Shown: positions 32,512 through 36,607 of the stretch, piece after piece
Numbering within the stretch: position 1 is the first letter of the stretch
Layout: the number at the start of each line of letters is the position of its first letter
IMG/VR virus record: IMGVR_UViG_3300020060_000012
Span: 1-49,912 of that record
Source of the DNA: a virus
DNA length: 49,912 nt
Reading direction: 5' to 3' (one strand)
Program-made: the position numbers and the translations under genes
Notes under the pieces: model-generated
What the model was told of the DNA's origin: nothing
Databases searched by the model: none
Seen by the model: the letters and a program-made list of their open reading frames with translations, nothing else

Positions 32512-34032
32512 ATGCCTAATTCTATTCCCGCTAAAGCCCTTGTGGCAGTCCAACCCGGTGTGTTGTCTCCTGGTGGCACTCCGCTGGCGCTCAACAGCGT
32601 ATTCCTGACAAGCGACCCATCAATTCCGATTGGCACGGTGCAGGCTTTCCCAAGCGCGCAGGCCGTCTCAAATTGGTTCGGAGCGCAAGCCCCTGAAACC
32701 TTGTTGGCCAACATCTACTTTGGTGGCACGAACATTTCCACGAAGATTCCGGGCGTGCTCTATTTCGCGCAGTACAACGCGGCAGCGGTTGCCGGATACC
32801 TGCGCAGCGCCCCGCTTGGCCTCACGCTGTCGCAAGTCCAAGCGCTATCTGGCAGCCTCACGCTGTCGATTGACGGTGTGTCCACGGTGTCTGCGGCCAT
32901 CAACCTTTCCAGCGCCACCAGCTTCAGCAACGCGGCGGCATTGATTCAGACCGGGTTGCAGGCGGGTACGCCCACCAACACGGCCACAGTGACTTATGAC
33001 GCGCTCCGCGGTGCGTTTGTGGTCACATCCCCGACCACGGGCGCTGCGAGCGCCATCGGCTTTGCCGCAGTCAGCACGCTGGCCACCGGCCTGAAGCTGA
33101 CCAGCGCGGCGGGCGCGGTGACTTCGGCGGGCGCCGTCACGGCTGTCCCTGCCACTCTGATGAACGCCATAACGGGCGCGCAACAGAATTGGGTTGTGTT
33201 CATGACGGTGACCGAAGTGGATTTGGCCCACAAAGAGCTTTTCGCCGCGTGGGTACAGACCACGAACAAGCGATATGTCTACGCGTGCCAAGACTCGGAT
33301 GCGTCGCCCACCACCAACCCGAACGCCACCGGCAGCTTCGGCAATATCGTCCGGGCTGCGGCTCAAGACGGCATTGAAGTGATTTATGACAACGCGGCGG
33401 GCGGTGCAGTGCCGGGCTCCATAGCGGCCTTCTTCTGCGCCTACGCGGCCTCCATCAATCTGACGGCCACCAACGGCAACACTACTGCGGCCTTCCGCGG
33501 CCAGGCCGGTTTGATTCCACAGGTTGTCGATGAAACCACCTATGACAACCTGATAGCCAACGGGTACAACTGCTACGCCAGTTTCGCTACCAGCACGCAG
33601 CAATTTCAGGAATACCAGCCGGGCAGCATTTCTGGTGAATTCTTGTGGGCCAACGCCTACTTGAACCAAGTTTATCTCAACAGCCAGTTGCAGCAAGCGG
33701 GCATGAATCTGTTGCAGCAAATCCCCGCGCTGCCGTATGCGACGCGCGGCCAAAATTTGATACGCGCGGCCTTCGCGGACCCCATCAACGCTGGCTTGGA
33801 TTTCGGCAGCATCGTTGCCGGTGTCACCCTGTCTTCGGCACAGATTGCCGAAGTGAACAACGCGGCCGGTGTGAATATCGCCACCACGTTGCAGCAGGTT
33901 GGCTGGTACCTGCAAATACTCCCCGCGGCGCCGAATGTGCGCACCGCGCGAGGCAGCCCGCCCATGACGTTCTGGTACACGGACGGCGGCAGCGTTCAAT
34001 CACTTGACCTTGCGTCAATAGACGTTCAATAG
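32512..34032 (+). CDS. Contractile tail sheath protein (DUF3383-type)
   Basis: 506 residues. The N-terminal part (AKALVAVQPGVLSPGGTPLA, FPSAQAVSNWFGAQAPE, GVLYFAQYNAAAVAGYLRSA) and the large core (ITGAQQNWVVFMTVTEVDLA HKELFAAWV, YVYACQDSD, FFCAYAASINLTATNGNTT, FRGQAGLIPQVVDETTYDNL IANGYNCYAS, YLNQVYLNSQLQQAGMNLL) match DUF3383 sheath proteins. Presence of a sheath shows a contractile tail. It has a Ser/Thr/Ala-rich inserted domain at about residues 105-225 that probably decorates the sheath. Followed by the tube gene. Confidence 0.87.
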   Translation: MPNSIPAKALVAVQPGVLSPGGTPLALNSVFLTSDPSIPIGTVQAFPSAQAVSNWFGAQAPETLLANIYFGGTNISTKIPGVLYFAQYNAAAVAGYLRSAPLGLTLSQVQALSGSLTLSIDGVSTVSAAINLSSATSFSNAAALIQTGLQAGTPTNTATVTYDALRGAFVVTSPTTGAASAIGFAAVSTLATGLKLTSAAGAVTSAGAVTAVPATLMNAITGAQQNWVVFMTVTEVDLAHKELFAAWVQTTNKRYVYACQDSDASPTTNPNATGSFGNIVRAAAQDGIEVIYDNAAGGAVPGSIAAFFCAYAASINLTATNGNTTAAFRGQAGLIPQVVDETTYDNLIANGYNCYASFATSTQQFQEYQPGSISGEFLWANAYLNQVYLNSQLQQAGMNLLQQIPALPYATRGQNLIRAAFADPINAGLDFGSIVAGVTLSSAQIAEVNNAAGVNIATTLQQVGWYLQILPAAPNVRTARGSPPMTFWYTDGGSVQSLDLASIDVQ

Positions 34033-34044
34033 GAGCTTTGACCC

Positions 34045-34476
34045 ATGGCCACGATTACAGCCGCCAATAGCGAATTCATCCTTACCATTCCGCTGGTGTT
34101 TGCGGTGCCGCAGCCGCTTGACCGCTTCGCGACGGATGACGCGTTTGACACCGAAGATGTCAGCCCTACGGAAGCCAAGATTGGTGTGGACGCGCAAATG
34201 TCCGCGGGCTTCACTCCGTTCCTGACAAAGCAGATGATTCATTTGCAGGCCGACAGCGACGCCATTTTTGTCTTCGACAACTGGCTACAGGCCATGGAGC
34301 AAGTGCGCGAAGTATTCTTCGCCAACGGCTCCATCATCCTGCCCGCGGTGGGGAAGATTATAACCCTGACCAAAGGCACCTTGACGCGAGCCAAGAAGCT
34401 GCCCGATGTCAAGAAGCTGCTGGAACCACAGTCCTATGAAATCACGTGGCAAAAAGTCGTTGTGGCGTTCCAGTAA
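34045..34476 (+). CDS. Tail tube-like protein (143 aa)
   Basis: 143 residues directly after the sheath gene, the usual tube position. The sequence LTIPLVFAVPQPLDRFATDD AFDTEDVSPTEAKIGVDAQM SAGF, QMIHLQADSDAIFVFDNWLQ and GKIITLTKGTLTRAKKLPDV KK fits the beta-sandwich tube subunits of small myoviruses. Length agrees with the family. It is immediately followed (no gap) by the tail chaperone gene. Confidence 0.72.
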   Translation: MATITAANSEFILTIPLVFAVPQPLDRFATDDAFDTEDVSPTEAKIGVDAQMSAGFTPFLTKQMIHLQADSDAIFVFDNWLQAMEQVREVFFANGSIILPAVGKIITLTKGTLTRAKKLPDVKKLLEPQSYEITWQKVVVAFQ

Positions 34477-34905
34477 ATGCGCCTGTCAGAACGGCTGACG
34501 ATTCCGGGTGTGCGCTCCGAAGCGCACGGTGAAAGAGACAACGGCAAGACCTTTGTGCTGACGGAGATGGACGCATACAGCGGCCAGCGTTGGGCCACAC
34601 GGGCGTTGCAGGCATTGGGCTCCGGTGGCATCCACATCGACGCAGACAGCCTCAAGGGCGGCTTTGCGGCGCTGGCGGGCATTGCCTTTGTCGGTCTGCT
34701 TCGAGCCAACACGGATGTTATACAGGGCTTGCTTGATGAAATGCTGACGTGTGCCAAGTATGAGCATGACCCGGCACTGCCGCTGCAATCCATCACACCG
34801 GGCATCAAGTGCCCCGTGGAAGAAATCAAAACGTTTTATCTTCTACAGCGGGCGTTGTTCACCCTTCACACGGGTTTTTCGCTGCCCGCGGCCATCCCGA
34901 CCTAG
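34477..34905 (+). CDS. Tail assembly chaperone, zero-frame product
   Basis: 142 residues read in the zero frame from ATG 34477, adjacent to the tube stop. Mostly helical after a beta start (MRLSERLTIPGVRSEAHGER). Its place between tube and tape-measure genes and the overlapping -1 frame mark it as the short tail chaperone (G-like), which binds the tape measure during tail assembly and is absent from the virion. A GGGTTTT heptamer at 34872-34878 lies nine codons before its stop. Confidence 0.8.
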   Translation: MRLSERLTIPGVRSEAHGERDNGKTFVLTEMDAYSGQRWATRALQALGSGGIHIDADSLKGGFAALAGIAFVGLLRANTDVIQGLLDEMLTCAKYEHDPALPLQSITPGIKCPVEEIKTFYLLQRALFTLHTGFSLPAAIPT

Positions 34906-35108
34906 GGGCGGATTTGTTCAAAGCGCGTGCGCGCGGGCTTGTCGATTACGTGAACTTCCCACCGCTGATTGGCATGATTGTCAGCAGTGAACATGCTACC
35001 CTTAATGAGTTGCAAACCGTCTATGGCGTGCGTGATGCCTATGACATTGCGGAACTTATCAGCGTAGACACCCACAATAGGCGCGAGGCGCAGAAGCGGA
35101 CAGAGTAA
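34477..35108 (+). CDS. Tail assembly chaperone, -1 frameshift (GT-like) product
   Basis: Predicted join of 34477-34878 and 34878-35108 by -1 slippage, giving 210 residues. The -1 part continues FAARGHPDLGADLFKARARG and then LVDYVNFPPLIGMIVSSEHA TLNELQTVYGVRDAYDIAEL ISVDTHNRREAQKRTE. This extension has no convincing start of its own near the junction and ends at TAATG, coupled to the tape-measure gene. As in lambda G/GT and P2 E/E+E', the long form probably binds the tube via its extension. Confidence 0.75.
34872..34878 (+). other. -1 ribosomal frameshift slippery heptamer
   Basis: GGGTTTT in the phase G GGT TTT with respect to the zero frame (codons at 34873 and 34876). Both tRNAs re-pair after a one-base slip to GGG TTT. 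It fits the X XXY YYZ rule exactly and is the only such heptamer I find in the overlap of the two frames. Confidence 0.8.
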
Positions 35109-36607
35109 TGGCTACCATCATTGACGCCCTGTTGGTCACGTTCGGCATTGATGCCAGCCAGTACAAGAAAGGCCAGCAGGAGGCCGACAAGTCGCTACAG
35201 GAAACTAAGCGCAAAAACAAACAAGCCACCACGGAAATTGGCAAGCAGTTCGATGACTTGGGCCGCAGCGTGCTGGCCATGTTCCTAGGTTTTGAGGGGG
35301 CCGTGGGCTTCGTCAAATTCCTTGGCGGGCTCAACAAAGGTGAAGCCGACCTAGGCCGCTTCGCTCGCAACATCGGGTTGAGCGTTCACGAAGTCAATAA
35401 ATATGGTTTGGCTGTGGAGTTGGCAGGCGGCAAATCTGAAGATGCCCAAGCTGCGTTCGCTAAGATCACACAGGAATTCTCACAGCAGTCAGTCACCGGG
35501 CAGACCGGCCCGCTGCTGACGTTCCTGCGCGCCCGCGGTGTGGCTATCCTCGATTCCAACAACAAGCTGCGCAACCAGGGTGAAATCCTCGAAGAGCTTG
35601 CCGACAAAACCGCGCAATACGGCCGTGTCTACCAAGCGCAGATGTTTGCCGCTGCCGGATTGAGCGAGGGCGAAATAAATTATTTGACGATGGAAAAGAA
35701 GGCCCGCTTGGATTTAATTGACTTGGCAGAACGCAACAACAAACTGACGCAGGAGAGCACCGAAAAAGCGGCCAAGCTACAAGCACAGTGGCGTGACATC
35801 GGGCAGACCGGCCGGGGTGTAGGGCAAACCATACTTAGCGAAATCGGCACTGCTATGGAAAAGGCAGATAATTGGTTCAAGAAAATTGAAGCCGACAAAC
35901 AGACAAAAGCGGCTGCGGCTCCTGGTGATGCTGCCACCCGCGCACAGCATATCCGCGATATGGAATCTGGTGGCGGCAATCTATGGTCTGATTTTACTAG
36001 GGGAGTTGCCAGCGCTGTCACGCAGGCCAACAAAGCGTATTCGCGTGAGCCCGACCCGGTGCAGAAGGCAGACTTGCTCAAGCACATTGCAGCCACCGAA
36101 GCCGCGTTGGGTATCCCCGGGGGTTTGCTCGCGCGCATCGCACAGCAGGAATCCCATTTTAGGCCCGATATCATCAGCGGCCAAACGAAATCAAGCGCAG
36201 GCGCCGTGGGCCTGATGCAATTGATGCCCAAGTATTTTCCCAACGCTGGCAAAGATCCGGTGGCCGACATAGCCACGGCGGGCGCGGAGCTTAAGCGGCT
36301 TCACGGTGTATTTGGTGATTGGGCCACGGCGGTTGCCGCGTACAACGATGGCCAAGGAAACATCCGCAGCGTGCTGGCAGGCAAGAAGACGTTGCCCGCA
36401 GAGACGGCGGCTTATATGTCACACGTACTCGATGGCCCGACACCAGGCGCGGGCGGTGGCGGCAGCAGCCACAGCATTGATGTGGACGTGGGCCAAATCA
36501 ACATACACCCGCCAGCGGGCGCGAGCCCCGCGGCCATTGCCATGATGGTGCCCGCGGCCATTGAGCGCAAAATGTCCGTGAGCCAAGCGGCATTGGGGCA
36601 ATCATAA
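35108..36607 (+). CDS. Tape measure protein with lytic transglycosylase domain
   Basis: 499 residues, short for a tape measure, implying a tail of roughly 70-80 nm by the usual 1.5 angstrom per residue. The first 280 residues are helical (YKKGQQEADKSLQETKRKNK, FLGGLNKGEADLGRFARNIG). Residues about 330-440 form an SLT domain: GLLARIAQQESHFRPDIISG (catalytic Glu in QES), GAVGLMQLMPKYF, and DWATAVAAYNDGQGNI. It would cut peptidoglycan during DNA entry. The C-terminus is a Gly-rich linker and a beta segment. ATG shares a base with the chaperone stop. Confidence 0.85.
   Translation: MATIIDALLVTFGIDASQYKKGQQEADKSLQETKRKNKQATTEIGKQFDDLGRSVLAMFLGFEGAVGFVKFLGGLNKGEADLGRFARNIGLSVHEVNKYGLAVELAGGKSEDAQAAFAKITQEFSQQSVTGQTGPLLTFLRARGVAILDSNNKLRNQGEILEELADKTAQYGRVYQAQMFAAAGLSEGEINYLTMEKKARLDLIDLAERNNKLTQESTEKAAKLQAQWRDIGQTGRGVGQTILSEIGTAMEKADNWFKKIEADKQTKAAAAPGDAATRAQHIRDMESGGGNLWSDFTRGVASAVTQANKAYSREPDPVQKADLLKHIAATEAALGIPGGLLARIAQQESHFRPDIISGQTKSSAGAVGLMQLMPKYFPNAGKDPVADIATAGAELKRLHGVFGDWATAVAAYNDGQGNIRSVLAGKKTLPAETAAYMSHVLDGPTPGAGGGGSSHSIDVDVGQINIHPPAGASPAAIAMMVPAAIERKMSVSQAALGQS

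Follow-up and report, generated by a model that had tools for sequence, protein, structure and literature searches.

A predicted programmed -1 ribosomal frameshift of the lambda G/GT type in the tail assembly chaperone gene of a contractile-tailed phage group

In the viral DNA analysed here (IMG/VR record IMGVR_UViG_3300020060_000012, positions 1 to 49,912; the whole 49,912-nucleotide stretch is called the window below), the tail assembly chaperone gene very probably carries a programmed -1 ribosomal frameshift of the lambda G/GT type, a prediction from sequence in which our confidence is high. That such a frameshift joins two chaperone frames had been put forward in an initial annotation, and codon phase, conservation, the open second frame and a downstream RNA stem all argue for it. 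The anatomy of the site, its conservation and the stem are directly observed in this analysis, and the features concerned are the following.

32512 to 34032, plus strand: tail sheath gene, upstream (Pfam DUF3383, E 2.6e-117; PHROG 205, tail sheath)
34045 to 34476, plus strand: tail tube protein gene, upstream (Pfam PF22764, E217_Gp32, E 1.1e-18)
34477 to 34905, plus strand: 0-frame tail assembly chaperone gene, G-like, 142 aa (PHROG 1932, fold and gene position)
34872 to 34878, plus strand: slippery heptamer G_GGT_TTT, with its T_TTT core at 34875 to 34878 (phase, and conservation in relatives)
34878 to 35108, plus strand: -1 frame T-like extension, 76 codons (FAARGHPD...) and TAA, predicted to be reached only by slipped ribosomes (PHROG 3976, conserved open frame, AlphaFold)
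34879 to 34883, plus strand: 5-nt spacer from heptamer to stem (stem starts in the family peak 5-6 nt after the heptamer)
34884 to 34890, plus strand: 5' arm of the stem, GCCCGCG (7-bp pairing with 34932 to 34938; covariation; family excess)
34932 to 34938, plus strand: 3' arm of the stem, CGCGGGC (pairs with 34884 to 34890)
35108 to 36607, plus strand: tape-measure or lytic tail protein gene, downstream (PHROG 2013 and others; SLT domain)

Most ribosomes would be expected to stop at 34905, which yields the G-like protein of 142 aa. In a minority, tRNA-Gly paired with GGT and tRNA-Phe paired with TTT would slip back by one base to GGG TTT, aided by the GC-rich stem 5 nt downstream, and these ribosomes would go on to read 76 codons in the -1 frame, giving a minor G-T fusion of 210 aa (134 + 76) with the predicted junction ...HTGF-FAARGHPD. 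By analogy with lambda, both G and the G-T fusion might bind the tape measure, with the T part recruiting tube subunits; the slipping of the ribosome, its rate and these G/GT roles are what we infer from the anatomy of the site.

The chaperone gene and its extension sit between the tail tube and tape-measure genes, a position that had already been likened to that of lambda G/GT, and the neighbours can now be identified by their Pfam and PHROG matches. The 142-aa protein itself falls in a chaperone family: it matches PHROG 1932, 'tail assembly chaperone', with an E value of 6.8e-23, and its predicted structure (mean pLDDT 86.7) is matched by Foldseek to tail assembly chaperones of viruses, among them Acinetobacter phage AB1gp01. 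A Foldseek search of the PDB gave no significant match to this fold, and Pfam and NCBIfam searches gave no match to either the 142-aa protein or the -1 frame extension. The tape-measure-like protein encoded downstream is short (499 aa) and has a transglycosylase (SLT) domain, which suggests a short tail with a built-in wall-degrading activity.

At the slip site, GGGTTTT is read by the 142-aa frame as G_GGT_TTT, the surrounding 0-frame codons being ACG GGT TTT TCG CTG CCC GCG GCC ATC CCG ACC TAG, with TAG as the ninth codon past TTT. The exact X XXY YYZ phase, the nine-codon distance to the stop and the run of 76 codons in the -1 frame up to a TAATG at the tape-measure start (TAA at 35106 to 35108, overlapping the ATG at 35108) had all been described in the initial annotation, and all of them stand on re-reading of the coordinates and codon phase. 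The heptamer is therefore found in phase and inside the overlap of the two frames. The bare GGGTTTT string is not enriched in the window (five found, 5.5 expected), so that the weight of the argument rests on its phase, its place and its conservation.

Viral contigs, phage records and one scan of bacterial genomes supplied the relatives, and since the wider scans used an N-terminal protein pattern, the slip site was not selected for; the structure work drew on contig loci only. After removal of identical copies, 117 distinct relatives were anchored on a conserved L-H-x-G/D-F motif, representing 90 clusters below 75% protein identity, 89 of them assessable for their frames. Already in the first relative search, GGGTTTT stood in phase in 17 of 17 loci. 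The T_TTT core lies at the same codon in nearly all of the 117 relatives; the codon preceding the Phe ends in T in every one, and Phe itself is almost always encoded by TTT, with one real TTC (L084), against a background of 220 TTT to 301 TTC. Likewise, a Gly codon at the site is GGT in 67 of 67 cases, compared with 210 of 1163 at other positions of these genes. A constraint on the protein alone is insufficient to account for such choices of codon, and it is the nucleotides themselves that appear to be kept. A sequencing error or a decayed gene that merely mimics two frames has, in our judgement, a negligible chance of being the explanation, since we found no point in its support and the relatives refute it: the two-frame layout comes back in isolates as well as in prophages and in metagenome contigs of many origins.

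A full slippery heptamer (G_GGT_TTT, A_AAT_TTT or, one codon later, T_TTT_TTN) is present in 102 of the 117 relatives and 80 of the 90 clusters, against a background in which in-phase XXXYYYZ strings occupy 0.28% of the codon positions upstream of the site in the same genes. GGGTTTT had been described as less common than heptamers of the GGGAAAA type, but in these relatives it is the commonest: 52 have the GGGTTTT type only and 9 carry both this and, a codon later, TTTTTTN, while 37 have TTTTTTN only and 4 have AAATTTT. The remaining 15 relatives (10 of the 90 clusters) have no full heptamer, and keep the T_TTT tetramer. A comparison of the two frames in relatives had been proposed as a check, with lack of a heptamer named as a refuting result; this result applies to those 15, but the tetramer that they keep is by itself prone to shifting in E. 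coli (PMC4066793).

These numbers bear on the question of which tRNAs would slip, although the protein comes out the same whether two tRNAs slip on GGT-TTT or a single one on T_TTT. A real -1 frameshift driven by a single tRNA on T_TTT, with G_GGT adding little, overlaps our main reading, and we regard it as unlikely. In its favour, T_TTT is the only element common to essentially all relatives, including the 15 just mentioned, and U_UU.Y ranks second among the shift-prone tetramers in E. coli (PMC4066793). Against this, the base preceding the codon is G in 61 of 67 GGT sites and in only 18 of 40 GAT sites, a difference for which third-base composition is part of the explanation, and GAT sites usually gain T_TTT_TTN (the next codon is TTN in 31 of 40, compared with 14 of 67 GGT sites), as though heptamers were favoured. 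The bias towards G before GGT thus favours a role for the full heptamer in the programmed frameshift. According to Sharma et al., the most efficient heptamer class in E. coli is H_HH.U_UU.Y, where H is U, C or A (PMC4066793); G_GGU_UUU lies outside this class, so that the frameshift rate may be low, and a modest rate would suit a minor product.

The fusion protein could also be made if RNA polymerase slipped on the T run and added a base, since an extra U yields an identical GF-FAARG junction, and longer T runs are indeed present in some relatives, such as L101. However, the run at the window's slip site has only five Ts, that of several relatives (where the next codon is ACN, GTA or CTN) only four, and both the G before GGT and a stem spacing tied to the heptamer register fit tandem slippage by the ribosome, which makes the polymerase an extremely unlikely source of the shift. 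Longer T runs are seen in the slip region of L101 and of the Commensalibacter loci L152-L156, and polymerase slippage could contribute at these particular loci.

The second frame opens with TTC at 34878, and its translation matches PHROG 3976, 'unknown function', with an E value of 5.1e-17; the AlphaFold model of this T-like extension has a mean pLDDT of 85.8, and a Foldseek search of the PDB with the T part found nothing. Counted from the slip site, the -1 frame runs without a stop for 69-90 codons (median 76) in every one of the 89 assessable clusters. An open stretch of at least 60 codons in the +1 frame is seen in only 8 of them, and a +1 shift was rejected, as that frame is not kept open. 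By contrast with the steady open length of the -1 frame, the distance between the slip site and the 0-frame stop ranges from 1 to about 45 codons, so that it is the slip site, and not the end of the 0 frame, from which the length of the second part is set. In the -1 frame, substitutions fall preferentially at codon position 3, protein conservation of the second frame begins at the slip site, and the C-terminal extension is conserved as a protein. We think that PHROG 3976 is probably no independent gene but the T extension of a tail assembly chaperone, and this would give the family of 'unknown function' a role as a likely T domain. In L085, L106, L115 and L118 (viral contigs and Paraburkholderia adhaesiva), the GGT TTT of a GGGTTTT heptamer is followed at once by TAG or TGA, so that the chaperone ends exactly at the slip site, and the -1 frame is still present.

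Might the -1 frame nevertheless be a separate small gene, with a start of its own or coupled to the upstream stop, and the heptamer be incidental? Several GenBank records do treat it in this way or omit it, and a short separate ORF is annotated for AsaM-56 gp68, GF-2 gp17, PA-1 ORF070 and Acjo_20. Separate genes with starts had been named beforehand as a finding that would count against the frameshift, and while the database labels are there, the starts are generally not: within the first 30 codons of the second frame an SD-like start occurs in only 5 of the 89 clusters and an ATG in only 11. In the window, none of the TTG, GTG and ATG codons in the -1 frame after the slip site (the first TTG is codon 13) has a Shine-Dalgarno-like sequence, in keeping with the early remark that this frame has no good start of its own. 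A separate gene is also at odds with protein conservation that begins at the slip site, and it leaves the exclusive use of GGT for Gly at the site (67 of 67) and the near-universal TTT unexplained; we therefore consider it very unlikely.

The programmed frameshift gains further support from a feature absent from the initial annotation, a GC-rich stem that begins 5 nt after the heptamer. Across six same-register relatives, 42 of 42 pair cells are standard and two pairs change on both sides, whereas sliding the partner by 1-3 columns brings pairing down to 36-50%; this alignment is small and was picked for its common register, so that it counts as supporting evidence only. A strong stem starting 2-11 nt past the Phe codon is found in 58 of the 89 clusters, compared with 13.0 +/- 2.8 (largest 19, 50 draws) when the codons of the -1 frame are synonymously recoded and about 8 in dinucleotide shuffles. 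In the window itself, the region after the heptamer is no more stable than its shuffles (z +1.3 over 50 nt, +1.7 over 80 nt and about 0 over 120 nt), and with fold energy unexceptional, it is covariation and the family-level results that speak for the stem. Folding a column-wise consensus of 13 relatives yielded no usable helix, since these differ in helix register and in loop length, and stems were then found by per-sequence searches and in the same-register subset. Stimulatory structures are common, not obligatory, at frameshift sites, and the 5-nt-spaced stem at 34884-34890/34932-34938 is a probable stimulator of this one.

This frameshift belongs to a known type. G/GT frameshifting is widely conserved in tailed phages, and in phage lambda, too, a chaperone gene in the interval between the major tail protein and the tape measure has a -1 frameshift close to its end, used at a low level (PMC5009743). 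Lambda is a siphovirus with a different slip sequence, likened to the window by layout, and its G/GT ratio and binding roles are experimental (PMC5009743), whereas the binding roles proposed here are carried over from it. Closer in slip sequence is Burkholderia thailandensis phage PhiE067, by its published description also a myovirus, for whose gp16/gp16.1 the same heptamer, GGGTTTT, in the gene preceding the tape measure, has already been proposed; its frameshift, predicted in that paper, would give a fusion of 204 aa with the slip near residue 127, leaving about 77 further residues, against 76 here (PMC7266877). In a further report, the TAC-N/TAC-NC chaperones of Vandenendeviridae and Andersonviridae (phage Adele), myoviruses of other phage families, are described with an invariant GTTTTT motif, which also occurs in the window, and, ahead of the tape measure, with a -1 extension longer than 200 bp; the likeness is one of motif and extension (PMC12846349). 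The chaperones of Acinetobacter phage AB1/IME-AB2 (Obolenskvirus) and Aeromonas phage vB_AsaM-56 (Popoffvirus) are relatives in sequence and fold with the same gene order, the IME-AB2 slip site being T_TTT_TTA and not G_GGT_TTT. Their records carry no frameshift annotation, and a literature search of incomplete coverage found no paper describing a frameshift in Obolenskvirus or Popoffvirus relatives. What this analysis adds is evidence from across the family, a stem, and the switching of slip register that has taken place again and again. The slip site and RNA stem are unusually clear in this contractile-tailed phage group, which is large and mostly unannotated, and the reading corrects an annotation that either calls the second frame a separate hypothetical protein or misses it.

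On a protein tree of the relatives the slip registers interchange many times: the first changes 20 times and the second 13 times, and well-supported branches force at least 9 and 7 of these changes, respectively. The second-register heptamer ends 3 nt later than the first, and its stem starts about 4 nt further downstream (median start 9 nt, compared with 5 nt at first-register sites; p 3e-5, uncorrected for shared ancestry). We see roughly even chances that T_TTT is the basic slip core and that the heptamer has moved repeatedly between G_GGT_TTT and T_TTT_TTN (G_GGT_TTT_TTN being both), with the stem moving along and a 5-6 nt spacer kept. If this were true, the chaperone family would be a natural experiment in the evolution of frameshift signals. 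The repeated register changes, with stem positions to match, supply a set of cases in which to test how a low bacterial frameshift rate is set jointly by slip site, spacer and stem. Finally, L024, L146 and L151 (Klebsiella phage RCIP0114 and Raoultella prophages) have only GCT TTT GTA at the site, a T_TTT outside any full heptamer, with the -1 frame kept and, in L024, a weak downstream fold, and these three loci may use another stimulator.
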